A stretch of DNA of 64,000 bases. Origin: Fulvivirga imtechensis AK7. GTDB taxonomy: Bacteria > Bacteroidota > Bacteroidia > Cytophagales > Cyclobacteriaceae. The stretch covers positions 62,001 to 126,000 of the forward strand of contig NZ_AMZN01000014.1 in NCBI RefSeq assembly GCF_000331535.1. Direction: 5' to 3'. The stretch's first letter is position 1, and each line of letters starts with the position of its first letter. A program made the position numbers and the translations under genes. The notes under the pieces are model-generated. The model was not told where the DNA came from, did not search any database, and worked only from the letters and a program-made list of their open reading frames with translations. This document shows positions 1,680 to 59,848 of the stretch, piece after piece.

Positions 1680-2264
1680 ATGAGCAATATGAAAAAATAT
1701 ATTCCATGGATAATAATAGCCGTTGTGATTATATGGCTATTCTCTGCATATAATGGTCTGGTTAACAAAGAGGAAAATACCGAGGCTGCCTGGGCACAGG
1801 TTGAAAATGTTTACCAGCGAAGAGCTGATCTTATCCCGAACCTGGTAAATACTGTAAAAGGTGCGGCTGATTTTGAAAAAGGAACACTTACAGACGTGAT
1901 TGAAGCACGTGCAAAAGCCACGTCCATTAATGTTGATCCTTCCAATCTTTCACCTGAAGCGATCCAACAGTTCCAACAAGCGCAGGATGGCTTGTCCTCA
2001 GCCTTGGCAAGGTTGATGGTCGTGGTAGAGCGCTATCCCGAGCTAAAAGCAACGGAAAACTTCAGTCAGCTACAGGCCCAACTGGAAGGAACCGAAAATA
2101 GAATTGCTGTTGAGAGAAGAAGATTTAATGAAGTAGTCAGGGAGTACAACACCTCCATACGCAGGGTGCCCGGAAATATTCTGGCCGGAATCTTTGGCTT
2201 CGAAAGAAAAGGCTATTTTGAAGCAGAAGAAGGATCCGAGAAGGCACCTGAAGTGAAGTTTTAA
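1680..2264 (+). CDS. lemA: LemA family protein
   Basis: A 194-residue protein with one N-terminal membrane segment (IPWIIIAVVIIWLF), then the LemA core: the NTEAAWAQVENVYQRRADLIPNL region, the KATSI block and the ERRRFNEVVREYN stretch. LemA proteins are small membrane-anchored helical proteins of uncertain function, often beside TPM-domain proteins; no such partner is present here. The start could be ATG 1680 or ATG 1689 (MKKYIP); both precede the membrane segment. A palindromic element begins 2 nt after the stop codon. Confidence 0.92.
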   Translation: MSNMKKYIPWIIIAVVIIWLFSAYNGLVNKEENTEAAWAQVENVYQRRADLIPNLVNTVKGAADFEKGTLTDVIEARAKATSINVDPSNLSPEAIQQFQQAQDGLSSALARLMVVVERYPELKATENFSQLQAQLEGTENRIAVERRRFNEVVREYNTSIRRVPGNILAGIFGFERKGYFEAEEGSEKAPEVKF

Positions 2265-2265
2265 C

Positions 2266-2413
2266 TAGTGTCTCTAAGAAAACGTCAATGTCTGTGTTAC
2301 GCTCGCCCCAATAATACTCACGTACCTCAGTACGCTCCGCTTTTTGGGACTTCGTCCCGCCCTTTGGCGGGAACGTTTTCTGAAAGCCACTTAGGGTTTT
2401 CTTATAGACACTA
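2266..2413. repeat. 148-bp palindromic miniature element, uninterrupted copy
   Basis: The element runs from TAGTGTCTCTAAGAAAAC to an end whose reverse complement is TAGTGTCTATAAGAAAAC, so the termini are 18-bp inverted repeats with one mismatch. The interior has a GGGACTTCGTCCC-type stem and encodes nothing. Its reverse complement matches 26635-27105 once the insertion there is removed, at exactly the same length. It lies in AT-rich DNA immediately after the lemA stop and could act as its terminator. No transposase is nearby, so it would be non-autonomous. Confidence 0.85.
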
Positions 2414-2504
2414 ATTAAATTGTTTAAAAAAACTTTGTATTTCAGTTAAACTTCCTTGACAATTGAATTTGTTTTTAAGTTAAATAAATTCCTTATATTG
2501 TAAT

Positions 2505-2723
2505 ATGAAGCAGTTTAAGATACATAGTAAGTCTAATGGTAAATTGTACATTAAACCATCAGAAATTTTTAACAACGATGATGGTAAGGCTATGGTAAAA
2601 AGGCTAAGAAACTCTTCGATTTACAAATCAATTAAAAAGCTTAAAGGAGGGTCAGCCGCAGCCCAGTGCATGCCATTTAATCTGTTAATATTTCCGTTAA
2701 TAGGTGGGGCTATTGTTTTTTGA
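2505..2723 (+). CDS. Small peptide with double-glycine leader-like motif (candidate precursor peptide)
   Basis: The frame encodes 72 residues: a basic, Ser/Asn/Lys-rich N-terminus, then KKLKGG ending at residue 49, then a 23-residue hydrophobic tail with one Cys at residue 55. A charged leader ending in GG before a short hydrophobic core resembles precursors cleaved by C39-peptidase transporters. No transporter or modification gene is nearby and no clear ribosome-binding site is visible. The tail could instead be a membrane segment of an unrelated small protein or a decayed gene. A promoter in the AT-rich leader (TTGACA at 2456) is possible but not typical for this phylum. Confidence 0.35.
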   Translation: MKQFKIHSKSNGKLYIKPSEIFNNDDGKAMVKRLRNSSIYKSIKKLKGGSAAAQCMPFNLLIFPLIGGAIVF

Positions 2724-2800
2724 TACTTTCTCGTTTCACAAAGTAACAAAGTATCATCACCAACGAATAGACAGGCAAAAGCTACTATTCAATTCTATAA

Positions 2801-3377
2801 TCGCCGGGAGTCTTTTTACTAATCGCTGCAACAACAGTTACAGGTACAGCTACACATTATTTTCCCAGCGTAAGTTTTAAGGCCAAATCTATATTTCCCC
2901 TGGATCTACCTTATCTTGGTACTACTTTTCTGGCATTATTTTAGGCATAATACTGGCTGTACTTAGTAACGTTTTTAAAAATGAAGCGAAATCGATCATT
3001 AATGCCATCGACAATTTTGGTAATGAACTTGAGCTTCTTACTAAAGCGTCCTGGGAACATGGTATACTTCTAAATATATCCCTTAAGTCTGGAAAAGCTA
3101 TGTCGGTTGGGTTACTACGTTGCAGAAGCCTTCAAAATCAACTTATATCACACTTCTTCCTGCGTTTAGTGGATATAGAAGTTCTGAAACCAAAGAATTA
3201 ACTTTTACCCCCCAGTATCTTGACTTGTATGCGGAATTCATCAAATCTGGAAAATATCAAAGCCTAAATGACATGAATTTTCAGATAGTAATTAACACAG
3301 ATGAAATCATATCAACAAGTATATTTGACATAGAGGTGTATGAATTATTTAATAGTGATAAACGGAAGGTTAACTAG
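2801..3377 (+). pseudogene. Frameshifted membrane protein gene (unknown family)
   Basis: Three frames must be joined to read a coherent protein. Frame 2 from 2801 gives two hydrophobic stretches (FLLIAATTVTG, then LGTTFLALF) until a TAG at 2942. Frame 1 takes over near 2932 with GIILGIILAVLSNVFKNEAK and continues to about 3100. The last frame, to the TAG at 3375-3377, carries a soluble domain with FSGYRSSETKELTFTPQYLD. Both shifts go the same way, as two single-base losses would produce. The result resembles a two-helix membrane anchor with a cytoplasmic domain. Sequencing error is the alternative, and the 5' end is also unclear. Confidence 0.55.
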
Positions 3378-3385
3378 CCTAAATT

Positions 3386-5821
3386 TTACCCTGTGAAATA
3401 AACTCTCTTCACCCTTTGACTAACGTTAGTCAGTATCTCATAAGGGATAGTATTTATCTTCCTGGCCACTTCCATAATCGTCAAATGCTCTCCAAAAATT
3501 TCCACTTCATCTCCTTCCCGGGCATCGATACCGGTAATATCGATCATGGTCATATCCATACATATATTGCCTATCACTGGCGCTCGTCTTCCTTTTAGCC
3601 ATACTTCACCCACTCCATTGCTGAAGGCTCTGCTAAAACCATCTGCATATCCAATGGCAATGGTGGCGAGTTTCATATCATTTTCGGCTACACCTCTTCT
3701 TCCATAGCCAATTGTTTCTCCCTTTTTTACCTCTTTTACCTGCGAAATGATCGTTTTTAACCTACTGATAGACTGTAATTGATCCTGCTGCTGGTTGGTG
3801 GCTTCAAGACCATATAGACCTATCCCCAAACGGACCATATCGTAATGATATGCAGGGAAGCGAATGATGCCGGGTGAGTTGAGCAGATGACGAAGGGGAT
3901 CAATGGCCGCACCGTTAATAACCTGCGTTGACATGGCGTCAAACTTCTGAGCCTGTCTTTCGGAAAATTCGTTATGAGTAGCTTCGTCAGAACCAGCCAA
4001 ATGACTAAATATACTCCTGACATCAATATTTTTGTTCTGTTGCAATATGTCTACCAACTGTTCGATATCCCCTTCTTCAAAACCAAGTCTATGCATACCT
4101 GTATCCAGTTTAATATGCACGGCCACTGCTCGACCGTTCAAAAAACGGATCAGTTTATTGAGTATATTGAAGTTATAGACCTCCGGCTCCAGCTTGTACT
4201 GCAGTAGCTTATCAAAGCTGTCTTCACTGGGATTCATGACCATTATAGGAAGGTGGATACCATTGGTCCTAAGTATGACGCCTTCATCTGCATAGGCAAC
4301 ACCCAGGTAGTCCACACGATGAAACTGAAGCAGGTTGGCCACTTCAAGACTACCACTGCCATAGGCAAATGCTTTTACCATTACCATCAGCCTGGTATCC
4401 GGCTTAAGTTTAGACCGGTAAAAATTCAAGTTGCTGGTCAGGGCATCCAGGTTAATTTCCAGTTGTGTCCCGTGTATCTTTTCCTCCAGAGCATTTACAA
4501 TATGCTCAAACGCAAATATTCGGGCTCCTTTTACCAGAATAATCTCGCGGTGGAAGGAGTTCAGATCATGTTTTTTTAGAAATTCTTCTGTCGTTTCATA
4601 AAAACGAGCCTCCATGTGGAACAAGTGCTTGTATCGAGAAAGTGAGGGTCCAATGGCTATCAATTTTTGAATGTCGGCTGCAGTCAGCAGGTCACTCACA
4701 TTTTGATAAAGTGCTTCCTCAGGAAGACCGGATTGCAAAATGTCAGATAATATAATTGACCTGCCGACCTGTTGTTTTTGGTGCGATAAAAATTCCAATG
4801 CTACCTGTAGTCCACCCAGATCATTGTTGTAAGCATCATCCACCAGGTAGCAATTATTGATGGCCCGCTTAAGCTCAAGCCTCATACGCACCTGCAAAAG
4901 CTGGTTCAATCCTTCCTGGATACGATCGACATCATAACCAAGATATACCATAAATGCTATGCAGTGCAGGCTGTTTTCTATAGAGGCCTGATCTACAAAA
5001 GGGAGCGTGTACTTCAGGGTCTTTCCTTCGTATTTCAGTAGCACGTTGGTATCTAATTCCCTGATCTGAAGGTTCTCTATTCTAATATTACTACCGGGGT
5101 GATGTCCCCAGGTAAAGCCTTTTTCATAGAGCACACGATCTATCTCCAGGTAGTCTTTGCAATAAATAACTATCGGTGTATTCTTAAACAGCAGCGCTTT
5201 TTCTTTCACTTTTTCTGTTATAGACGAAAAGCCCGAATCGTGGGCCGATCCGATGTTGGAAAATATGCCTATTGATGGTTTAATTATGGCTTCCAGCCGC
5301 TCCATCTCTCCGGGCCTGGAAATGCCCGCTTCAAAAATTCCTACCTCATGCCTGCTTTCAATATGCCAAACAGACAATGGCACACCTATCTGCGAATTGT
5401 AGCTATGCGGATTTTTAATCGTTCTTTTAAAAGGAGCAATAAGCTGAGAAAGCCACTCTTTTATGATGGTTTTACCATTACTCCCGGTGATTCCTACCAC
5501 AATTAAGCCAAACTGACCTCTGTGGAAGCGTGCCAGTGCCTGCAGTGCCGCCAGGCTGCTCGGGACCTTCATAAAATTAGCGTCTTTAAATTTCTCCAGC
5601 GATATATCCTGTTCTACCACAAATTGCCGCACCCCCTGGTCATAGAGAGATAAAATATATTGATGACCATCATGTCTTTCTCCCTTTATGGCAAAAAAAA
5701 CACCTCCTGCGGCAAAAAAGGACTTTCTGCTATCAGTAATCAGGTATTTAATTTCGCTATTCTCGTTTAACGACAGAATTTCACCCCCTGTAATACCGGG
5801 GAGGTCTTTAAAGTGGACCAT
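3386..5821 (-). CDS. murF-alr: Bifunctional UDP-N-acetylmuramoyl-tripeptide:D-Ala-D-Ala ligase / alanine racemase
   Basis: An 811-residue fusion found across Bacteroidota. The MurF part (about 1-450) has the ATP loop GITGSNGKT at 110-118 and adds D-Ala-D-Ala to the UDP-MurNAc-tripeptide. The racemase part (about 455-811) has the PLP lysine in MVKAFAYG (K483), the IGYGRRG segment and the GNICMDMTMIDIT block, and makes D-Ala from L-Ala. The fusion places supply of D-Ala and its use for peptidoglycan in one cytoplasmic protein. It has no close operon partner in cell-wall synthesis here; the next upstream gene on this strand is a GNAT protein about 50 nt away. Confidence 0.97.
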   Translation of the reverse strand: MVHFKDLPGITGGEILSLNENSEIKYLITDSRKSFFAAGGVFFAIKGERHDGHQYILSLYDQGVRQFVVEQDISLEKFKDANFMKVPSSLAALQALARFHRGQFGLIVVGITGSNGKTIIKEWLSQLIAPFKRTIKNPHSYNSQIGVPLSVWHIESRHEVGIFEAGISRPGEMERLEAIIKPSIGIFSNIGSAHDSGFSSITEKVKEKALLFKNTPIVIYCKDYLEIDRVLYEKGFTWGHHPGSNIRIENLQIRELDTNVLLKYEGKTLKYTLPFVDQASIENSLHCIAFMVYLGYDVDRIQEGLNQLLQVRMRLELKRAINNCYLVDDAYNNDLGGLQVALEFLSHQKQQVGRSIILSDILQSGLPEEALYQNVSDLLTAADIQKLIAIGPSLSRYKHLFHMEARFYETTEEFLKKHDLNSFHREIILVKGARIFAFEHIVNALEEKIHGTQLEINLDALTSNLNFYRSKLKPDTRLMVMVKAFAYGSGSLEVANLLQFHRVDYLGVAYADEGVILRTNGIHLPIMVMNPSEDSFDKLLQYKLEPEVYNFNILNKLIRFLNGRAVAVHIKLDTGMHRLGFEEGDIEQLVDILQQNKNIDVRSIFSHLAGSDEATHNEFSERQAQKFDAMSTQVINGAAIDPLRHLLNSPGIIRFPAYHYDMVRLGIGLYGLEATNQQQDQLQSISRLKTIISQVKEVKKGETIGYGRRGVAENDMKLATIAIGYADGFSRAFSNGVGEVWLKGRRAPVIGNICMDMTMIDITGIDAREGDEVEIFGEHLTIMEVARKINTIPYEILTNVSQRVKRVYFTG

Positions 5822-12650: not shown

Positions 12651-13081
12651 TCTTTGTTGGTTTTAGTTAATGAAAATTTAAAATAATACCCTACACGGAT
12701 AATTTACCAGAATATACACATTATTCTTAAACAATTATCGATTAAGTACTATTTATTTAAGAATTACATTCTTTGACGCAATAGAAATATGAAATCCATT
12801 ATAGCTACTTACCCTTAAACAGATTCGCCAGATAAGTGAGGGACAAAACGGAAGAAGAGAATAATTTATAAGTAGTGTTTGTAAGAAAACTCACAACTTA
12901 TCGTCATCGGTAACGAAATGCAAAAATCCCTCCCCCTAAGTGTGCCATAAGATCGCTGGGATTACTACAGATGACAATAAGAGTTCGGTTCTATTACTAT
13001 ATAATTTAGAGATCCACAGATCAAATGTGAATTGGGAAAAGCTCATAATCTGTCGACTGCCTCCTGTCTTATTACTTCGAC
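12651..13081. other. Intergenic region with a solo end of the 148-bp element
   Basis: No gene is supported in 431 nt. At 12873-12890 the sequence TAGTGTTTGTAAGAAAAC is identical over 18 bases to the left terminus of the element at 26635, but no matching right end follows. It looks like a decayed or truncated copy. The remainder shows no clear promoter for the minus-strand gene at 12650. Confidence 0.5.
12873..12890. repeat. Solo terminal repeat of the miniature element
   Basis: This is an 18-of-18 match to the left end of the element at 26635. No opposite terminus is found nearby, so it is a fragment rather than a complete copy. Confidence 0.6.
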
Positions 13082-26572: not shown

Positions 26573-26740
26573 AACCGGTAAAGTTAATTAATTGCAGTTA
26601 CCTATAACAAGTTTAGACGTAATTAGTCCGTAATTAGTGTTTGTAAGAAAACTCTAAGTGGCTTTAAGAAAAGGTTCCCGCCAAAGGGCCATAGCCGTTA
26701 ACTTAAGAGAATAACGAGCCCCCAGAGGGGGTAAATCTTT

Positions 26741-26763
26741 GTAGCCCGGGGTGAAGCCCCGGG
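26741..26763 (+). repeat. REP-like hairpin, forward copy
   Basis: GTAG followed by CCCGGGGTGAAGCCCCGGG, a near-perfect stem. A GTAG tetranucleotide next to a hairpin is the layout of REP sequences handled by RAYT (TnpA-REP) transposases. An inverted copy lies at 26938-26960. Confidence 0.75.
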
Positions 26764-26937
26764 TTTAAACGAGAAGTTGAGTGTGCCATAGGAAGGCCCA
26801 ACCATGGAACACAGGCTTCCTTGGCACACATGGCAGGAATGAGTTCGAAGCATTTACCTTAGTAAGCATGGATGCGCCAAAATAGCCTTCTCATCTTCCC
26901 AAGCTTGAATGTGGCGCATAAAAAAATCTAATCCTAT

Positions 26938-26960
26938 CCCGGGGCTTCACCCCGGGCTAC
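26938..26960 (-). repeat. REP-like hairpin, inverted copy
   Basis: This is the exact reverse complement of 26741-26763, ending in CTAC. The two face each other about 174 nt apart, the arrangement called a BIME. Confidence 0.75.
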
Positions 26961-27227
26961 CAATATTGCATCCCTACCGGGATGCTTAAGTTAACGGCTA
27001 TGGCCAAAGGGCGGGACGAAGTCCCAAAAAGCGGAGCGTACTGAGGTACGAGAGCATTTTTGGGACAAGCGTAACGCAGACATTGGCGTTTTCTTAGAGA
27101 CACTAATTAAACTGGGCTTTAGTGCTGTTGAAAACCGGCTAACCAAAAAAAATGTGACTTTTTTACGACCGGTGATTATGGAATCATAAGATCTTCAGCA
27201 TCATGTCAGAAACAAATAATCAAAACT

Positions 27228-31706: not shown

Positions 31707-31873
31707 AAATTTGCGGACGCAGGCAGTACTCCTCAATAAAAATGAGCCCCCGTTCGAAAGGTTAACTAATGTGAGTTCGGTCATTCTGCCTGTCCCGAAC
31801 TTGCTTAACTTGCCTCGGGAAAGCACGAAGAATCTTACTAAGTTCAAGGATGGCTGAGGAGATTTCTCGAGGG

Positions 31874-31890
31874 CCATAGCCGTTAACTTA
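31874..31890. repeat. Solo terminal repeat of the 315-bp element
   Basis: Seventeen bases are identical to the CCATAGCCGTTAACTTAAG terminus at 26689, then diverge. No partner end occurs before the next gene, so it is a remnant. Confidence 0.55.
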
Positions 31891-31911
31891 TAAGTATTCC
31901 CTTTGAGTTTA

Positions 31912-32022
31912 TCACCTCACCCCTGAACAGGCTGAAGTATAAGCACAGTAGAACCGCCCTCTCCTCCGAGGAGAGGGAATTGCAGACTGCAGTAAAAGCA
32001 CAGGCTTTTGATGGGTGAGGTG
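31912..32022. repeat. Palindromic intergenic element
   Basis: CACCTCACCC at 31913-31922 is repeated inverted at 32013-32022. The centre has a 9-bp stem (CCCTCTCCT / AGGAGAGGG, 31957-31977). It could be a small repeat element or a folded RNA; no second copy is seen in the window. Confidence 0.4.
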
Positions 32023-32190
32023 TGAAATTCGGGGCAACGGGAAAGCTATCGAATAAGGCAATGCCGAAGGGTTATTTGAGCTACAGCGTCTGTGTTTCCT
32101 ATTATTGAAGCATAGCGTCAGGCTCTACTGCCATAGGGTTGTCAGTGGCGTAGTTTTAATTGCAGTCAGCAACTAAAACAACTCAACCAA

Positions 32191-49973: not shown

Positions 49974-52361
49974 CTATTCCTCCTTTAAAGCGTCTACCGG
50001 ATTTGCAATTGCTGCGCGAATTGTTTGCAGAGCAACTGTTATCCCCGCCAAAACCAGTGCCAGCATGAGCGCAAATATAAAACTCCATGCATTTAAAGGA
50101 ATCCGGTACGCAAAGTTAGTCAGCCAGTCTTCCAGCAAAAACCATCCAAGAGGTATAGCTAAGAAAGCAGCGATAATAACTAAAACAAGAAATTTTCCTG
50201 AGAGAAGGCCCACCACCTGCCGTACCGAAGCACCCAGCACTTTACGGATGCCGATTTCCTTATGCTTGGCTTCTACATGAAACGATACCATGCCATACAA
50301 GCCTATACATGCTAAAAATACTGCCAACACCGAAAAAGAGTTGACCAATGCCGTAAACTGCTGATCAGCGCGATATAATTGCTGAATATGATCATCGATA
50401 AATCTATAATCAAACGGCATATCAGGATTTATTTCAGCCCAATCTCTTTCCAGCGAGGTCAGTATTTCACTTACCGAGCCTGCTTTAGCCTTGATGAAAA
50501 TATAGTCCTGGTAAGCTCTGGGCACATAAAGTACCAGCGGAGTGATCTCTTCATGCATGCTGGCGTAGTGAAAATCCCTGACAACACCGATCACTTCTCC
50601 TTCCCAGGTATCATTGAGTAATAGCTTCTTTCCAATAGGGCTATCCTCCCAACCCAACATTTTAACAGCCGACTCATTGAGGATAAAGTTGCTGCTGTCA
50701 TTGGCAAATTCTTCAGAAAAATCTCTGCCGGCAACAAATTCAAGATCCATCACCCGGCCGAAGTCATAATGTGCTCCGAAAAGGCTGATGCGGTTGCGCG
50801 ATTCATCATTACCCACTTCCTGAACCGGAACTCCACCATTTTGCCCGTCAAAGAGGTTTCCCGCTGCGGTCACTTCCTCCACATATGGATTCTGACGCAA
50901 GTGATCTCTGGTCGAAATATATCTTCCGTGCAGCTCTTCCCCCACCATTTGCACAGCTATTACCCTGTTTTGGTCAAAACCCAGATCCCTTTCACTCAAA
51001 TATTTCATTTGCCTGCTCACCACCAGGCTGGCAGCAATCAGGCCTATGGTGATGAAAAACTGAAACACGACCAGTACATTTTTTACAGGGATGCTGCTGG
51101 TCTTCACATTTAGCCTTCCTTTCAATGCTCTGGTAGGCGAATACCCTGAAAGAAACAGGGCGGGGTATAATCCTCCTGCAAGCCCAACTATGAGGATCAG
51201 CAACAGATATAGTGGCAGGCTCTCCAGGTGTACACCAACGGCCATGTCCATATCATTTTTTAGCAGGTTGGAGATTGGAGCTGAAAATATTTCAAGCAGC
51301 GCGACTGCGAGGAACAGGCTGCCGAGCGCCAGCACCAGCGATTCTGTGATATGCTGAAAGAATAGAACGGTTCTCTTTGCTCCCAGCGTTTTTCTCACAC
51401 CAATTTCCCTTATTCTCTTTAGGGATAGTGTTGTGGATAAATTCGTAAAATTAAAAACAGCTATTCCCAGGATCAGTATGGCAATAGCCAAGAGGCCATA
51501 CACGTAAGTAATGTCACCTTTTGGCGCTGTACCATCACGCTCGGTAATCTCTTTTGATCTAAGGTGAATATCGCGGACGGGTTGCAAATCCAGGGCTATA
51601 CGTTCTGCAGTTTCCTCACCCATATGACTGGCAATGAAATGATGAAGTTTCGGTGTCATTCCTGCTGTGTTCGCACCTTCATGCAACCGCACGTAGGTTG
51701 GAAAAGAAGTCCATCCCCAGCTCTCGAGCGTGACGGGATAACCGTGCGGCACTTCAAAGGAGCTGAACGAGATCAGCATGGCAAACTGCAAATGGCTTTT
51801 GGCCGGGGCGTCTCCAATTACGCCCGTGATGCGCACAACCAGGTCGTTGTCAATCGAGATCGTTTTGCCGACCGGATCTTCTCCTGCAAAATATTTTTCT
51901 GCCAAAGTATTCGTGATCACAGCGGAATTTTTCTGATCCAGCACGCTTGTGGGATCACCGGCTAACAACGGAAAAGAAAATACATCGAAAAAAGTAGAGT
52001 CAACATAGAAGATGTGATCTTCATAAAATCGCTCCTCACCAATGCGAACCAGTACATTATCGGCATGGCGCAGTCTTACGGAAGTCATTATTTCAGGTAT
52101 CTCATCCACAAGAGCGGGACCCATGGGAGGAGATATGGCCGAGGCCCTGCGGACTTCTGTTTGCCCTTTCGACATCAGGTTTACCCGGTAAATATCACCG
52201 GAGTGTTCATGAAAATTATCGAATGACATCTCCTGGCGCACATAGCTGACAATCAGCAGGCAACTTGCGAGGCCAAGAGTAAGACCTAAAAGGTTGATCA
52301 GCGTGTAAAGCTTGTGCCGGGATAAAAATCTAATAGCGAATTTGATGTAGTTCTTTAGCAT
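49974..52361 (-). CDS. FtsX/MacB-type ABC transporter permease (copy 1 of 5)
   Basis: A 795-residue protein of the double FtsX/MacB-PCD type. It starts LKNYIKFAIRFLSRHKLYTLIN with a membrane helix, then a large periplasmic domain, three FtsX helices (about 290-420), a second periplasmic domain and a final FtsX block (KEIGIRKVLGASVRQVVGLL). It ends NPVDALKEE. These permeases couple to a MacB-like ATPase that drives mechanical export work; none is encoded in the window. It is the last gene of the cluster. Confidence 0.92.
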   Translation of the reverse strand: MLKNYIKFAIRFLSRHKLYTLINLLGLTLGLASCLLIVSYVRQEMSFDNFHEHSGDIYRVNLMSKGQTEVRRASAISPPMGPALVDEIPEIMTSVRLRHADNVLVRIGEERFYEDHIFYVDSTFFDVFSFPLLAGDPTSVLDQKNSAVITNTLAEKYFAGEDPVGKTISIDNDLVVRITGVIGDAPAKSHLQFAMLISFSSFEVPHGYPVTLESWGWTSFPTYVRLHEGANTAGMTPKLHHFIASHMGEETAERIALDLQPVRDIHLRSKEITERDGTAPKGDITYVYGLLAIAILILGIAVFNFTNLSTTLSLKRIREIGVRKTLGAKRTVLFFQHITESLVLALGSLFLAVALLEIFSAPISNLLKNDMDMAVGVHLESLPLYLLLILIVGLAGGLYPALFLSGYSPTRALKGRLNVKTSSIPVKNVLVVFQFFITIGLIAASLVVSRQMKYLSERDLGFDQNRVIAVQMVGEELHGRYISTRDHLRQNPYVEEVTAAGNLFDGQNGGVPVQEVGNDESRNRISLFGAHYDFGRVMDLEFVAGRDFSEEFANDSSNFILNESAVKMLGWEDSPIGKKLLLNDTWEGEVIGVVRDFHYASMHEEITPLVLYVPRAYQDYIFIKAKAGSVSEILTSLERDWAEINPDMPFDYRFIDDHIQQLYRADQQFTALVNSFSVLAVFLACIGLYGMVSFHVEAKHKEIGIRKVLGASVRQVVGLLSGKFLVLVIIAAFLAIPLGWFLLEDWLTNFAYRIPLNAWSFIFALMLALVLAGITVALQTIRAAIANPVDALKEE

Positions 52362-52418
52362 AAGATGTCGTTTTTGTGCTTTCTGAGCCCTAAGACTCCG
52401 TTTTTAACGCTCCCCTAA

Positions 52419-52476
52419 CCCCTCTCTAAAAATTAGAGAGGGGAAGTTCAAATCACAGATTTGAACGGGGGTGAGT
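52419..52476. repeat. Paired hairpins between permease copies 1 and 2
   Basis: CCCCTCTCT / AGAGAGGGG is a strong stem around AAAAATT, followed by GTTCAAATC / GATTTGAAC and GGGGG. It could terminate or process the permease transcript. Confidence 0.5.
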
Positions 52477-52505
52477 TTATAAGGCCAAATGCATCCGGTC
52501 CATAG

Positions 52506-54878
52506 TTATTCTTCTTTTAACACATCCACCGGGTTGGCCATGGCGGCTTTCACCGACTGCATGACCACTGAGGCCAGGGCAATGGCCATGGCTACCAGTA
52601 ATGTCAGTGCGAATACTTCAACGCCAATGGATACTTTGTATGCAAATTGATCGAGCCACTGTCGTGAGAAATACCACCCCAGAGGCCATGCCACCAGGTT
52701 GGCAATGAGCACCAGCACGAGGTAGTCCTTCACCAGCAGTGATGTAATACTTTTTATGCTGGCGCCCAGCGCCTTTCTTATTCCAATCTCTTTCAGCCTT
52801 TGATTGGCCGTAAATGTTGCCAGCCCGAAAATACCCAGGCAGGAAATGAAGATGACAATACCGGAAAATATGGTAAATAACCGGCCCTGCAACTGCTCCG
52901 TTTGGTAGAGTCTGTTAAAATTCTCATCTAAAAATTCATAGGCAATAGGATAACCCGCACTATGTGCTGACCAGGCATTTTCAATGTACTCCACCGCGTC
53001 TTTCACATCCCCCTGGATCTTGATGGCCATCATCCTGCCGTTGGTACGATTGGTGATCATCAGCGGCTCGATGCCGGCTTTTAATGAGGAGAAGTTGTAG
53101 TCTTTCACCACACCGACCACCGTTTTGGGTATCGAGTCGAATGAAATGGACAGCCTGCGGCCGATGATCTCATCGTTGGTCAGGCCTGTTTCGCGAACGG
53201 CTCTTTCATTGAGCACGACCACCTGGTTGTGATCTGCGGCATGGTCTTTCCTAAAGCCCCGCCCAGCTACTATCTGGAGGCCAAAGCTTCTGAAATAGTC
53301 GGCATCGGCAAACAACGTTCTGAACCTCGGATTTTCGTCAAGCCCTTCGATATCTGCCGTCATGGTGTCGTGAAACCCCCCGGGGATACCTGTTCCGGCT
53401 CCCACGGAAAGTATTGCCGGGTGCTCGAGCATTTTATTCTTAAAAGCCTCACGGTTATTTCGTATCTCCGTATGGTTTAGTGGAAATGTAAGCACCTGCT
53501 GCTTATCAAAACCGAGGTCCTTTTCCTGGATAAAATTCATCTGCCTCCCTACCATAAGTGTCATGATGATCAGAAATGCAGAGGTAGTAAACTGAAGAAT
53601 AACCAACACCTTTCTAAAACCAACACCACTTTTTCCGCTTTTTACTTTTCCCTTCAGCACCTCCACGGGTTTATATGCCGAAAGTATAAATGCCGGATAA
53701 ATACCGGAAAGAAGACCGGTAACAACAATGATAAAACCAAGCATAGGCAAAAGCACCGGTAGTTCATGAGTAAGGGATAGCTCCAACCCGAAGGTGTGGT
53801 TAAAAACCGGCAGAACGACTTCAATAGACATAAAAGCAAGCACCACAGAAACGCCGGAAATAAGAAATGCCTCTCCCAAAAACTGGATCATTAACCCCTT
53901 TTTCGATGAGCCGAGCGTCTTTCTTACTCCTACTTCTCTGGCTCTTAACACAGACTTTGCCGTGGCCAGGTTCATGAAATTAATGCAGGCGATCAGAAAA
54001 ATAAATATGCCTACCACAGAAAAGACGATGACACTGCTTTTGCTGCCATGCAACACTTCATCGTAGCGCACATCCTGCTCGAAATATGTTTCTGACAGGG
54101 GCTGTAAAGTGATGTCTATCCGGTTGGTCATCGTTTCGAAATCCTTCCCGAAATACTTATCCATAAAGCCCGGAAACTGTGCCTCCAGATGAGATTCACT
54201 GGCAGGGTCGTTAAGTAAGACGTAGGTAATAAAACTATTGCTCCACCAGTCGGAGAAGTAGCTTGCATTTCGCAGTAGCGCCAGGTTGCCCACAAAGTCA
54301 AAGTCCATATGAGATTTGGCAGGAAGCTCTTCGAATACTCCTGTTACCATCAGGTCGAATTCATTATCAACCCTAATCATTTTGTTTAGCGGGCTATCAT
54401 CTCCAAAATATTTCCTGGCTATCTCCCCGGTAATGATCACTGAATTTGGCTGATCCAGCGCTGTTTTGGGATTTCCCTGAGCGAGCGGAAAAGTGAATAC
54501 ATCCAGAAAATTCGAGTCCGCAAGAGAAAATTTTTCTTCCATAAACACCTTGTCTTCATAAGCCACCAGCCCCTCCCCAAAAGACATTCTCACCGTTTGA
54601 TCCACTTCTTCGGGAAAGTCGGTATGTAGCGCCTCTGCAAACGGACCGGAAGTCACCCCAATGAGGTATTTTTCGCCATTGAGATTTCCGATGCGTAGTA
54701 GCCTGTATATTCTGTCTGATTGGGCATGAAAACTGTCATAGCTGAGCTGATCATTGACATACAAATAAATGACCATGCAAACGGATATCCCAAGTGTAAG
54801 CCCTGAGATATTGATGAGGCTGAAAACCTTCTGCTTCCAGAGGTTTCTTAGTGATATTTTTATGTAATTTCTTAGCAT
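52506..54878 (-). CDS. FtsX/MacB-type ABC transporter permease (copy 2 of 5)
   Basis: A 790-residue paralog opening LRNYIKISLRNLWKQKVFSLIN, with two periplasmic MacB-PCD domains and two FtsX blocks (the first with VLRAREVGVRKTLGSSKKGL, the second with KEIGIRKALGASIKSI). It ends NPVDVLKEE. It is separated from copies 1 and 3 by about 145 nt of hairpin-forming DNA on each side. The sequence is well diverged from its neighbours, so the duplication is old. No ATPase is nearby. Confidence 0.92.
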   Translation of the reverse strand: MLRNYIKISLRNLWKQKVFSLINISGLTLGISVCMVIYLYVNDQLSYDSFHAQSDRIYRLLRIGNLNGEKYLIGVTSGPFAEALHTDFPEEVDQTVRMSFGEGLVAYEDKVFMEEKFSLADSNFLDVFTFPLAQGNPKTALDQPNSVIITGEIARKYFGDDSPLNKMIRVDNEFDLMVTGVFEELPAKSHMDFDFVGNLALLRNASYFSDWWSNSFITYVLLNDPASESHLEAQFPGFMDKYFGKDFETMTNRIDITLQPLSETYFEQDVRYDEVLHGSKSSVIVFSVVGIFIFLIACINFMNLATAKSVLRAREVGVRKTLGSSKKGLMIQFLGEAFLISGVSVVLAFMSIEVVLPVFNHTFGLELSLTHELPVLLPMLGFIIVVTGLLSGIYPAFILSAYKPVEVLKGKVKSGKSGVGFRKVLVILQFTTSAFLIIMTLMVGRQMNFIQEKDLGFDKQQVLTFPLNHTEIRNNREAFKNKMLEHPAILSVGAGTGIPGGFHDTMTADIEGLDENPRFRTLFADADYFRSFGLQIVAGRGFRKDHAADHNQVVVLNERAVRETGLTNDEIIGRRLSISFDSIPKTVVGVVKDYNFSSLKAGIEPLMITNRTNGRMMAIKIQGDVKDAVEYIENAWSAHSAGYPIAYEFLDENFNRLYQTEQLQGRLFTIFSGIVIFISCLGIFGLATFTANQRLKEIGIRKALGASIKSITSLLVKDYLVLVLIANLVAWPLGWYFSRQWLDQFAYKVSIGVEVFALTLLVAMAIALASVVMQSVKAAMANPVDVLKEE

Positions 54879-54910
54879 CGTGTTTGTCTGTTTATTTCAG
54901 AACTTTTCGA

Positions 54911-54996
54911 AACCACAGAGGTAACAGAGGCTTATTGGAGAAACACAGAGAAATCTCTCTGCGGACTCTGTTTCTCCTCTGTGTACCTCTGCGGTT
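54911..54996. repeat. 86-bp imperfect palindrome between permease copies 2 and 3
   Basis: AACCACAGAGGTAACAGAGG at the left mirrors CCTCTGTGTACCTCTGCGGTT at the right, with an AGAGAAA/TTTCTC middle. The core CACAGAG units make it look like a dispersed palindromic repeat family; only one copy lies in the window. Confidence 0.6.
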
Positions 54997-55024
54997 AATC
55001 ATATCGTCAAAACGATCGATCTTT

Positions 55025-57436
55025 TTATTCTTCTTTCAGTACCTCCACGGGGTTGGTCCGCGCTGCTCTGAACGACTGGTAGCTCACTGTGATCAGCGTT
55101 ATCATCACCATAGACAAGCCTGCTATAACGAATATCAGCGGGCTCACTTCTATTTTGTAGGAGAAGTTCTGCAGCCAGTAATCTGCCAGGTAGTAGCTAA
55201 ACGGAACTGCTATCACCAAAGCTATTGCTATGAGCGTCAGAAAACCTTTGTTGACCAGCAGCAGAATATCTTTTATATTCGCGCCAAGCACCTTTCTTAT
55301 ACCAATTTCTCTCACTTTTTGTGTAGTGGTGTAATATACTAATCCAAAAAGGCCGATACACGCAATGAAAATTCCGAGTCCGGTGAATATGGTGAACAAC
55401 GCATTCAGCCGCTCTTCCGATTTATACATTTTGTCAAAAGCATCATCCATAAACGTATAGGCAAACGGCCATTCCGGCTCCAGCTCCGCCCACTTGTTCT
55501 CAATGAAAGTCAGGGTTTCGGAAACATTCTCCGGTTTTATCCTCAGCGCCAGGGTATGATATGCCTCAGGATAAATCTGCAACACCGTGGAGGACATGTC
55601 TTCTCTAAGGCTTTTAAAATGAAAGTCTTTCACCACACCTATCACCCGGGCTGTTTTTACCGAATCATAATGCCACATGTCCCATTTTAATTCTTTACCA
55701 AGTACCTGTTCAGGCTCATTATATCCCATGTTTTTCATGGCTGTTTCATTAATAATAAAAGCCGACTGGTGGTCTGTTGAATGTTCTTTCGAAAATGCCC
55801 GGCCGGCCAGCAGCTCCAGTTGCATGGTCTGCAGGTAGTCATGGTCTACCATAAAATGATTGGCGGGATACTCTTTACCGCTCACCGCGTCCACCACCTC
55901 ATCACCGGAAACGAGGTCACCGGGAAGGCCGTAAGAATAGGTTGCGGCAATAATGTTTGGGTGGTTGAGAAACTCCTGCTTAGCCGCATTCTGGTTATCG
56001 CTGATATTATCCCTGATCCTGAAAAAGATGATCTGCTCTTTGTTAAAACCCAGGTCCTTATTGCGCAGAAAGCTCAATTGCTGATATACTACGATGGAGC
56101 CTACGATAAGGAAAATGGATAAAGTAAATTGAATGACGACCATCACTTTTCTGAAAACAGAGGTAGAGGAAACTTTTGATCCGGAACCTTTGCCCAAAAT
56201 AGCCACGGGTTTGAACTTAGAGGCATACAAGGCCGGGTATACGCCCGCCAGGCAACCGATAAATACAGCAAAAGCTATAATGGAAAGTAACACCAGGGGC
56301 TCGGTCACAAAATGAAATTGAATGTTCTTATCCGCATAGGCATTGAGGTAGGGAAGCAGAAGCTCGGCCATCAAGCCGGCAATCAACACCGAAACCACCG
56401 CCAGGAGGATGGATTCTCCCAAAAACTGAAAAACCAGTTGTTTCCTGACTGCTCCGATCACCTTTCTTACACCCACTTCCTTCACCCGGTTGAGCGAGCG
56501 GGATGTGGATAAATTGATGAAATTGATACAAACAATAATGATGATGAAGATGGCGCTGGCCGAAAGTGCTGTCACCGTATAAATGCTGCCTTTTTTGGCA
56601 ATATCCATTTCCAGCCTGGACGAATGCAGGTAGATATCCTGCACATTTTGAAAGTATGGACGATACGTAAACCCCCGCGGTTCCGTAACCGGCCAGGCCT
56701 CCTCTTCGATGAAGGAGGCAAACTTATCTTCAAAAGCCTGCGGATCAACCTCCTCTTTTAGCTTCACATAGGTAAAAAACTGCTGCCAGACCCAATTCTT
56801 CATCCGCTCCATATCAAAGCTGGGGTGGTACAGGCTTTCCATCGATATCACCACCTCCAGGTCGAGGTGGCTGTGTTCGGGAAGGTCTTCAAATACACCG
56901 GACACTGTGAAATCTCCCTGATCGAGCTTGATCACCTTGCCCAGTGGCTCATTGCCCAGATGTGCCTGTGCAAAACTTTCCGATACAATAATATGGCGAC
57001 CTTCTTTTAGTGCAGTGGCCGGGTCACCTTTAAGCAGCTCTACGTCCAGGATGTCAAAAAATGTGGGCTCCGCATAAATAACGTTACGTTCGAAAAACCG
57101 ATCTCCGTCTATGTCAAACATCACCTCGCCATAGGTGTCCAGCACCCGCATGGTGGATTCCACCTCTCCGAAATTCTCTTCCAGCTTGGTAGCAAAAACA
57201 GGAGGCACAATGGGATAGTAGTTGGTAGTGCCATCCGTGCCTTTTCGGATATTGTAGATCCGGAAAGTTCTATCCTTATCCGCATAATGGGTGTCATATT
57301 TCAGCTCGTCCCAAACGAAAGTGCCGATGAGCATAAAGCTGGCCATGCCTATCGCCATTCCGGCTATGTTGATAGCGGAGAACAGCTTGCTTTTAACAAT
57401 ATTCCGGTAGGCTATTTTTAAATAATTTCGAATCAT
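55025..57436 (-). CDS. FtsX/MacB-type ABC transporter permease (copy 3 of 5)
   Basis: An 803-residue paralog. The frame extends upstream to 57562, but that part overlaps copy 4 and lacks protein character; MIRNYLKIAYRNIVKSKLF at 57436 is the typical family start. Both FtsX blocks are present (SLNRVKEVGVRKVIGAVRKQL and REIGIRKVLGANIKDIL), and it ends NPVEVLKEE. Its ATG lies 11 nt after the stop of copy 4, so copies 5, 4 and 3 form a compact operon. Confidence 0.92.
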   Translation of the reverse strand: MIRNYLKIAYRNIVKSKLFSAINIAGMAIGMASFMLIGTFVWDELKYDTHYADKDRTFRIYNIRKGTDGTTNYYPIVPPVFATKLEENFGEVESTMRVLDTYGEVMFDIDGDRFFERNVIYAEPTFFDILDVELLKGDPATALKEGRHIIVSESFAQAHLGNEPLGKVIKLDQGDFTVSGVFEDLPEHSHLDLEVVISMESLYHPSFDMERMKNWVWQQFFTYVKLKEEVDPQAFEDKFASFIEEEAWPVTEPRGFTYRPYFQNVQDIYLHSSRLEMDIAKKGSIYTVTALSASAIFIIIIVCINFINLSTSRSLNRVKEVGVRKVIGAVRKQLVFQFLGESILLAVVSVLIAGLMAELLLPYLNAYADKNIQFHFVTEPLVLLSIIAFAVFIGCLAGVYPALYASKFKPVAILGKGSGSKVSSTSVFRKVMVVIQFTLSIFLIVGSIVVYQQLSFLRNKDLGFNKEQIIFFRIRDNISDNQNAAKQEFLNHPNIIAATYSYGLPGDLVSGDEVVDAVSGKEYPANHFMVDHDYLQTMQLELLAGRAFSKEHSTDHQSAFIINETAMKNMGYNEPEQVLGKELKWDMWHYDSVKTARVIGVVKDFHFKSLREDMSSTVLQIYPEAYHTLALRIKPENVSETLTFIENKWAELEPEWPFAYTFMDDAFDKMYKSEERLNALFTIFTGLGIFIACIGLFGLVYYTTTQKVREIGIRKVLGANIKDILLLVNKGFLTLIAIALVIAVPFSYYLADYWLQNFSYKIEVSPLIFVIAGLSMVMITLITVSYQSFRAARTNPVEVLKEE

Positions 57437-57447
57437 CTCTCTGACAT

Positions 57448-59838
57448 TTATTCCTCTTTCAAAACATCCACCGGGTTGGTGAGCGAAGCCCTGAGTGTCT
57501 GAACAACGATGACCGCCAGCGCCAGCAATGCTACTATGGCGCCTGCAGCCATAAAAAACCAAACCTCCATTTCAACCCGGTAAGGAAATTCATTGAGCCA
57601 GCGGGTCATGATCCACCAGGCTACCGGCAGAGCGATAGCCGCGGCTATGACGATCAGTCGCAAAAAGTCTCCTGAGATCATTGCTATTATCTGATTGGCT
57701 GAGGCGCCCAGCACCTTTCTGATGCCTATTTCCTTTGTTTTCCTGCTTACGGTATATCCCACCAGCCCGAAAAGACCGAGAAGAGCGATCAGCAGGGAGA
57801 TAACAGAGAAAATGTTGACTATTTTAGCAAACCGCTGATCATCTCCATAGCTGTTGAGCAGGGCCTGATCCTGGAAGGTGTAGTCGAAAATAGCAGAAGG
57901 GAAATGCTTCTTCCACGCTTTTTCCGCCACTGCAAACAGCGCTTCAGCATCCTTTCCCTTGATCGTAATCCTGGAAAAATTGGTTTGGACGTACATGCCC
58001 AATGGTTCTATCTGATGTCTCAATGAATTGAAGTGAAAGTTTTTCGTGACTCCGATGATCTTCCCTTTGCGGCCGCTGTAGACCAATTCCTTATCGATGG
58101 CCTCCTCAGGGCTCCAGCCATAGGCCTTCGCTGCTTTTTCGTTGATCAGAAATGCCTGCGTAGAGTCAGAATTGATCTCAGGAGAGAAGTTCCTGCCCGC
58201 CAGTAGCTCTATGCCGTACGTATCGAGATAGTCGAAGTCTACCGGCAGGCGGTAGAGCTTTTCAAACCGCACCTCGCCATCTTCATACTGCACGCGGCCA
58301 TTGCCGTTGCCCAGTCCATTGGTGATCATAGACCCCGAGCTGGCCACCTGCTGGATATTCGCATGTGACATCAGCTCTTCCCGGAAAGCGAGATACCCGT
58401 TTCTCACATCTTCATTACCGTTGACGCGCAACACCATCAGGTTGTTGTGATCATATCCAAGGTCCTTCGACTGCACAAATTTCAACTGCTGTGTCACCAC
58501 CACCAGGCCTACCAGTATCATCAGGGTGATAGCAAACTGGAAGGTCACCAATATGCTTCTGGTGGCGCTCCTGCCGGTTTGGCTCAGCGTGCCCTTCAAC
58601 GAACTGATGGTATTCAGGCGCGCCAGCCTGCGGGCCGGAAAATAGCCGGCAACAAACCCGAGGGGCAGGCAGAGCAACAGCAACTGAAGCGCTACACTTA
58701 AACGGTCGAACAAAATGAATTCCTTGCCGGAAAGCTGGTAAAACAGGGGCTTAAATACTTCGATCAGCAGCCCTGCGAAGATCATGGATAATAATGTTAG
58801 TAATAAAGTTTCTGTCAAATGCTGCCAGATCAGTTGCTGGCGCATCGCTCCGAGCACTTTCCGCACACCGGTCTCCCGGGCCCGCTCCAGTAAAAATGAA
58901 GTGGAAAGGTTGACATAATTGATACCTGCCAATAGCAGAATAAAAACTCCGATAGCTGAAAATATCCACACATGGGCGAGCTTGCCATTCGCTTTGAACT
59001 CATACATCAGATGGGAGTGCAGGTAAATAGAGGTGATTGGCTGCAGATAAAACCTGTAGTAGAGGTCATACTCCTCCATCATTTCTCCCATGTGGGTATC
59101 GGCCATGCCGGGAAGCTTTTTCTCCAGGGCTTCGGGAGAGGCACCCTCGTCTAACAGCACATACGTATGATAGCTGTTATTACCCCAGTTTTGAAGTTCT
59201 CCCCCGGCAACACTTTCGATGGTTTGCAATGATCCCAGGATATTGAAGGTGAAATGCGAAGCTTGAGGAGGATCAGCGATAACGCCAGTTACCTCATAGT
59301 CTATTCCACGGCCGTCAGGGTCATACTGGTATATCTTCAGCGACTGACCAACCGGATTTTCCTCTCCAAAGTATTTTTTGGCCATACTTTCCGTCAGCAC
59401 CACCTGGTACGGTGCGGAAAGCGCAGTTTCTTCATTGCCTTGCAGCAGGTGATAATCGAAAACCTCAAAGAAGGATGGGTTGGTAAAAACTATGTAGTCC
59501 TCCACAAATTTCAACTCCCCCTTTTCTACAATGGCGTCATTCTTCGCGAACGTTGCGCTGGCTTTTACCTCAGGAAAGTCCGCTACCATAGTTGGTCCCA
59601 AAGGCAGACTGGTTACGGACTGGTGCCAGCGGTCAGTACCCACGCCACCCTCGGCCACTACACGATAAAGCTGATCTTTCTTCGCAAAGTGCTGATCGTA
59701 GGAAAACTCGCTGCTGACCCAATTGAATATAAATGCCGCACACGCCAGACCTGTGGATAACCCGATGATGTTGATCAGGCTATACATTTTTCTGCGTTTC
59801 AGGCTCCTCAGGGCTATTTTTATATAATTTTTTAACAT
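57448..59838 (-). CDS. FtsX/MacB-type ABC transporter permease (copy 4 of 5)
   Basis: A 796-residue paralog starting LKNYIKIALRSLKRRKMYSLIN, with RARETGVRKVLGAMRQQL and KEIGIRKVLGASANQIIAMI as its FtsX signatures and NPVDVLKEE at the end. It follows copy 5 by 10 nt and precedes copy 3 by 11 nt. Domain order matches the other copies. Confidence 0.92.
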   Translation of the reverse strand: MLKNYIKIALRSLKRRKMYSLINIIGLSTGLACAAFIFNWVSSEFSYDQHFAKKDQLYRVVAEGGVGTDRWHQSVTSLPLGPTMVADFPEVKASATFAKNDAIVEKGELKFVEDYIVFTNPSFFEVFDYHLLQGNEETALSAPYQVVLTESMAKKYFGEENPVGQSLKIYQYDPDGRGIDYEVTGVIADPPQASHFTFNILGSLQTIESVAGGELQNWGNNSYHTYVLLDEGASPEALEKKLPGMADTHMGEMMEEYDLYYRFYLQPITSIYLHSHLMYEFKANGKLAHVWIFSAIGVFILLLAGINYVNLSTSFLLERARETGVRKVLGAMRQQLIWQHLTETLLLTLLSMIFAGLLIEVFKPLFYQLSGKEFILFDRLSVALQLLLLCLPLGFVAGYFPARRLARLNTISSLKGTLSQTGRSATRSILVTFQFAITLMILVGLVVVTQQLKFVQSKDLGYDHNNLMVLRVNGNEDVRNGYLAFREELMSHANIQQVASSGSMITNGLGNGNGRVQYEDGEVRFEKLYRLPVDFDYLDTYGIELLAGRNFSPEINSDSTQAFLINEKAAKAYGWSPEEAIDKELVYSGRKGKIIGVTKNFHFNSLRHQIEPLGMYVQTNFSRITIKGKDAEALFAVAEKAWKKHFPSAIFDYTFQDQALLNSYGDDQRFAKIVNIFSVISLLIALLGLFGLVGYTVSRKTKEIGIRKVLGASANQIIAMISGDFLRLIVIAAAIALPVAWWIMTRWLNEFPYRVEMEVWFFMAAGAIVALLALAVIVVQTLRASLTNPVDVLKEE

Positions 59839-59848
59839 TTTTGATCTT

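Follow-up and report, generated by a model that had tools for sequence, protein, structure and literature searches.

A miniature IS231-type element nested in another miniature element of Fulvivirga imtechensis AK7, and the palindromic target sites of its family

Two nested miniature elements between genes

The window analysed here, a 64,000-nucleotide stretch of a Fulvivirga imtechensis AK7 contig, contains between two open reading frames a miniature element (MITE) that is split by a second one. The inner element, which has further copies in the home genome, occupies 313 bp on the forward strand (26690–27002), carries no transposase gene and runs from CATAGCC to GGCTATG. Its terminal inverted repeats are perfect over 18 bp (CATAGCCGTTAACTTAAG at 26690–26707 on the forward strand, and an identical repeat at 26985–27002 on the reverse strand), and it is flanked by direct copies of the 10-bp word GCCAAAGGGC at 26680–26689 and 27003–27012. 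This duplication lies at the centre of a palindromic target of the form CCC[G-N8/9-C]GGG, with one arm, CCC, adjoining the duplication on the left (26677–26679) and the other, GGG, on the right (27013–27015). The original prediction had given the insert as 315 bp with perfect 19-bp ends and an 8-bp duplication. The direct repeat is in fact 10 bp and, because CATA is preceded by G (locus L156) or T (L171) in relatives, the leading C and trailing G are assigned to the target, which leaves ends of 18 bp.

The reading of one miniature element inside another is borne out, since a further copy of the repeat at 2266–2413 is split here by the insert, which the duplicated word flanks on both sides, and taking out the insert and one duplicate leaves 148 bp, of which 136 positions match the reverse complement of that repeat. 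The outer borders, previously placed at 26635–27105 and 2266–2413, move inwards by a TA on each side, which is part of a 6-bp duplication. So delimited, the outer MITE lies on the reverse strand at 26637–27103, in the opposite orientation to the copy at 2268–2411, measures 144 bp without the insert and one duplicate, and is flanked by TAATTA on both the left (26631–26636) and the right (27104–27109). The uninterrupted copy on the forward strand (2268–2411) is also 144 bp long, has the flanks TAACTA and TAATTA with one mismatch between them, and contains the empty target site, CCC[GCCCTTTGGC]GGG, at 2356–2371 (the same as C14:64356-64371).

The termini of the outer MITE read GTGTCT..AGACAC. Flanks were anchored in 29 of 30 outer copies, a few anchors being visibly misplaced, and in 16 of these 29 the 6 bp on each side are identical and of the form TANNTA. 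The family is very abundant, with some hundreds of ends: a 17-mer of the ends, with up to three mismatches, occurs at 347 and 309 places in the home genome (656 in total) against 8 and 14 (22 in total) in the control. Read as RNA, the outer MITE folds better than shuffled sequences on both strands (z −4.9 and −5.5), and Rfam at gathering scores gave zero matches within the window. A solitary outer-type end, GTGTTTGTAAGAAAACTC, lies at 12874–12891 of the window with TAAGTA before it and no partner within the 700 bases read. Elsewhere in the window, at 49974–59880, five copies of a 32-nt word spaced by about 2.4–2.5 kb perhaps mark tandem paralogous genes.

The inner element has 77 matches in the 6.7-Mb home genome, many of which are short pieces of its internal hairpins, and its 19-mer end CCATAGCCGTTAACTTAAG, with up to three mismatches, is found there at 41 and 38 places (0 and 2 for the reversed control). 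Eight full-length copies match at 100% after rounding, six of them identical, the window copy included, and two with one base different; given the remaining long matches, at 81–97% identity, the family also includes older members. The mean pairwise identity among 29 outer copies is 91.6% (range 83.8–98.0%), in a sample made up of the best matches to one copy (query 2264–2415) with two truncated copies left out. Set against the eight inner copies, which lie 0–1 base from the window copy, the outer family would be of greater age than the group that contains the window's inner copy, in agreement with the nesting and with the order proposed originally. The insertion had also been called datable; this holds for its relative order only. 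A DNA search of 196 genomes of the same bacterial family, with few candidates scored per genome, returned outside the home genome just short inner pieces, mostly internal hairpins. The hairpin regions have matches of 82–94% in same-family genomes (L108–L112 and L114–L120) that, as listed, come without the element ends.

Autonomous relatives and their transposase

The inner element has the properties of a MITE, being short and multicopy, with terminal inverted repeats and a target duplication and without a transposase, and its end matches each specified position of the IS231 signature CAT-------AA--TAA---. A transposase with matching ends, which the original prediction had proposed to look for, was found in relatives but not in the home assembly. 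Across 390 genomes of the order, the end pattern is present in 7 when one mismatch is tolerated, the home genome being one of them, and a protein search placed the relatives' transposases in 12 of the 390, none of them the home genome. One complete element, L138 in a genome that is probably Marivirga aurantiaca (G148), spans 2050–3643 with a 465-codon frame of the IS4 type, printed without an N-terminal Met; its left 18 bases are identical to those of the inner element, its right end agrees at 16 of 18, and its duplication is GTGTCCCCAC. This autonomous relative (L138/L169) measures 1592 bp from CATAG to CTATG, inside the IS231 size range of 1450–5400 bp.

All five of the relatives' proteins that were scanned score above the thresholds of both the IS4-family model NF033592 (NCBIfam) and PF01609. 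Seven aligned relatives have open frames of 446–466 codons, a single-ORF transposase without a frameshift, and Y337, R340, E344 and K351 are invariant in all seven aligned rows, so that the Y(2)R(3)E(6)K motif is present in the relatives; D136 and D207 are the putative catalytic residues by our reading of the alignment. A PDB profile search gave the Tn5 transposase as best matches at a non-significant E of 0.36. In the transposase tree, whose root is arbitrary, the Bacteroidota and Bacillota rows stand on opposite sides of one branch (100/99) when eight ungrouped rows are ignored, the viral contigs L244 and L245 having been labelled Bacillota from their ends. By criteria taken from the published description, and with a tree that holds only loci of this analysis, the inner element fits a non-autonomous type of the IS231 subgroup of the IS4 family.

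The loci examined numbered 91: the best 80 of 334 from the contig scan, four of the seven from the viral scan (three viral loci were left out) and seven from the protein search. With the best 80 of 334 included, 83 of the 91 have a CAT..ATG inverted repeat by the set criterion, some of them spurious; 73 have long enough flanks, and 24 have duplications with at most one mismatch.

In the own assembly, a PF01609 search gave one gene, of another type, and a protein search with the relatives gave no match. The sole PF01609 gene (L107, C25:92724-93425, 391 codons) was rejected as a candidate; it belongs to an element without inner-type ends that is presumably ISAs1-like, and some 6 kb away from it the contig terminates within an inner-type end. 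Several contigs of the assembly break off inside element ends, so a collapsed autonomous copy is possible in the own genome.

Target sites and their symmetry

The presence of further genomic copies with these ends and flanking duplications, on which the original prediction had been staked, is seen in 25 inner copies delimited by both ends in the home genome (single-ended copies left out; 29 rows), in which the duplication has at most one mismatch in 20, two in three, and three or four in two. The best-scoring duplication is 10–12 bp long in all 25 (one was parsed as 12), the length of IS231 direct repeats. By manual count, 19 of the 25 copies have CCC immediately to the left of the duplication and GGG immediately to its right, and the duplication is 10 bp where the half-sites stand 8 bases apart inside G..C and 11 bp where they stand 9 apart. 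The pattern CCCGN8-9CGGG occurs 223 times in the 6.7 Mb against 66 for the reversed control, and most palindromes used in the home genome, which lie in the outer MITE and in REP-like repeats, have the form given above for the window. The target site of the inner element is not arbitrary: the same 10-bp site was used by four insertions in four outer copies, of 313 bp (L004, in the window), 321 bp (L010), 292 bp (L090) and 210 bp (L085).

Two further observations concern these repeats. Loci L001 and L003 have reciprocal hybrid duplications (GGAACTGGTCC/GGAACAGGTCC; reverse order on the other strand), as expected for recombination between two copies. A repeat of about 260 bp at 31853–32113 of the window, 94–97% alike in L094, L100 and L106 and with shorter matches in L093 and L095, contains a solitary inner-type end (CATAGCC at 31875) after TTTCTCGAGGG and is perhaps a further composite repeat.

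Arm pairing was scored without the arms guiding the choice of duplication. Among sites with good duplications (those with at least two mismatches were left out of these group means), pairing was 0.72 in the home genome (n = 20; 11 distinct duplications) and, among the matches listed, 0.66 in Bacteroidota elements (n = 10) and 0.47 in the less palindromic relatives outside Bacteroidota (n = 14), where random pairing is about 0.26. With near-duplicates merged and sites with at least three mismatches left out, 58 sites from 14 genomes gave 31 target classes, in which the duplication is 10 bp long in 13, 11 bp in 10 and 9 bp in 8. When the centre was shifted in increments of half a base between −5 and +5, the mean pairing of nine pairs in these classes was 0.69 at offset 0 and 0.18–0.33 at all others, and the best centre was at offset 0 in 22 of the 31. 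At least six of nine pairs form in 20 of the 31 classes (17 of 25 without the home genome), compared with 898 of 60,000 random positions; part of the sites are poorly paired, 8 of the 31 having at most four pairs. In the copies from G000 (the home genome), G279, G339 and G373, which were found through queries that include the leading C, the innermost G-C pair is in part predetermined by the query, while the G292, G538, G536 and G539 copies in the multi-copy sample were found without it. For one target type of G292, hairpins without an insertion are present too, for example an exact one at C11:454608. Judged by these sites, this clade of elements inserts at the dyad axes of hairpins.

From the observed ends, duplications, dyad-centring and transposase family of the relatives, we consider it highly probable that a non-autonomous IS231-type element, mobilised in trans by a relative's DDE transposase, inserts by a staggered attack about a palindrome's axis of symmetry. 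The transposase of a full-length relative would recognise the 18-bp ends, and excision would be expected to proceed by cut-and-paste, as reported for IS231A. The element would then be joined to the target by attacks placed 9–11 bp from each other, at equal distances from the dyad axis, and gap repair would duplicate the stretch between the attack points, so that the duplication corresponds to the centre of the hairpin and the remaining stem is split to both sides. In the window, the outer MITE would bear the trace of one insertion of this kind. We infer that the dyad-centring reflects recognition by the transposase.

What the transposase would recognise can be read in two ways. A transposase clade in Bacteroidota may pick its targets by shape, attacking DNA able to form hairpins or cruciforms at positions symmetric to its dyad axis, with the stem sequence largely irrelevant, the 9–11 bp stagger adapting, and hairpins of any origin, including other MITEs, serving as landing pads; this is a tentative proposal, somewhat short of an even chance. 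The transposase could instead read a fixed symmetric sequence, the CCC/GGG half-sites, with hairpins arising only because half-sites of this kind form a palindrome and REP-like repeats are rich in them, a reading to which we give comparable weight. The two were compared by exchanging right arms between sites (20,000 permutations): pairing that is kept after the swap indicates conserved half-sites, and pairing that is lost indicates arms that match their own partner only. Over all 31 classes, own arms paired at 0.69 and exchanged arms at 0.37, with 0 of 20,000 permutations as high, though this pooled figure mixes lineages with different half-sites, and the within-genome figures are fairer but come from small samples (such as 5 and 6 classes).

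Within the home genome (n = 6), own arms paired at 0.59 and exchanged arms almost as well at 0.53 (3200 of 20,000 permutations); the half-site is nearly constant, and the conserved CCC/GGG sequence alone would suffice there, structure not being needed. A fixed sequence is also in keeping with L149, from a genome of the same bacterial family, which again shows CCC[GACCACTGTAC]GGG, with the duplication edges in G538, mostly GTG..AC, and with the preference of IS231A for GGG-N5-CCC. Against it, own arms beat exchanged arms in G292 (0.69 versus 0.33, n = 5; 357 of 20,000), where MITEs with left ends differing at 2–3 of 18 positions sit in varied hairpins: CTTC[TCCTTCAGGA]GAAG at L307, TGTCGG[ATCGAAAGAC]CCGACA at L312, GTGGCCA[GTCACAGAC]AGGCCAC at L309 and, with weaker pairing, TTCTG[GTGCATACAC]CGGCC at L311. 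The figures for G538 (n = 6) are 0.72 versus 0.54 (112 of 20,000), with 0.67 versus 0.40 for the outer six pairs; here five copies of one 1541-bp element have the GTG..AC edges in common and varied stems (CGGCAC/GTGCCG in two copies, CAT/ATG, and CGGTGG with a poorer partner), and L282 by our reading met its hairpin one base off centre. In G292 and G538, then, the stems differ while pairing persists. The sequence statistics show the targeting habit, which may reflect recognition of structure by the transposase, and the several unrelated hairpins hit in one genome make reading of structure versus sequence by a DDE transposase directly testable. Structure reading, if true, would explain the nesting of MITEs and the gathering of insertions in hairpin-rich intergenic DNA.

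The palindromes might also be a by-product of insertions being tolerated only in intergenic DNA, which is rich in terminators and REPs. The window insertion is intergenic and many targets are repeated palindromes, but tolerance would not place the duplication so precisely at the centre of symmetry (pairing drops to 0.31–0.33 with a shift of half a base), and we regard this as improbable. We think it less probable still that template switching between the inverted ends created the flanking palindromes once the element was in place, as inverted instead of direct flanking words in some elements might suggest: among 123 records with usable flanks, a count that includes redundant loci and spurious end pairs, 64 have direct duplications (at most one mismatch), 11 inverted ones and 48 neither, and the empty palindromes in the window (2356–2371) and in G292 contradict this origin for those two target types. 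The inverted words, found by a mechanical test at L173, L186, L304, L144 (counted twice), L188 and L204 among others, some of them doubtful, could come from such template switching or from hybrid copies. Very improbable, finally, is the original parse from the duplicated word CCAAAGGG, a MITE belonging to some other family, with 19-bp ends and duplications of 8 bp; it is refuted by the extension of the repeat to 10 bp, with the best parse of 10–12 bp in every delimited copy and the IS4/IS231-like ends and relatives' transposases also against it.

Comparison with known elements

The element itself is of an ordinary kind, a MITE with IS231-subgroup ends, and it is the targeting habit that is sharper and broader than we found described; a literature search over titles and the starts of abstracts, covering few subscription papers, returned no report of such targeting in Bacteroidota. 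IS231A has the palindromic target GGG-N5-CCC, and non-autonomous cassettes of IS231 are known as MIC231. The home-genome sites, CCC[G-N8/9-C]GGG, are likewise palindromic but have another half-site, and the relatives use varied hairpins. In its published description, the IS231 subgroup (IS4 family) is characterised by ends of the form CAT-7-AA-2-TAA, the YREK motif and 10–12-bp direct repeats, with cut-and-paste movement and some insertion specificity for IS231A, and the 2008 survey found it almost only in the B. cereus group (PMC2266710). The present elements resemble the subgroup in end signature, YREK (in the relatives' transposases) and direct repeats, and differ in their occurrence in Bacteroidota, in the 9–11-bp duplications of relatives and in the 313-bp gene-less form.

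ISPsy8, ISPa11, ISPpu9/10 and the REP-targeting element IS1397 belong to other IS families. Insertion of ISPsy8, ISPa11 and ISPpu9/10 at a fixed REP point, for ISPsy8 on the hairpin axis, is described in PMC1525189, and their 0–3-bp repeats and attachment to one repeat family each are unlike what is seen here. In the cases compared, the known REP-aiming insertion elements are each tied to one repeat family. A comparable case is ISRm22 (IS4Sa subgroup), which belongs to the IS4 family and has inserted into Sinorhizobium REPs at their axis of palindromy, with 6-bp repeats (PMC1525189); whereas ISRm22 is described there from one REP family, the present elements lie in several unrelated hairpins and have repeats of 9–11 bp.
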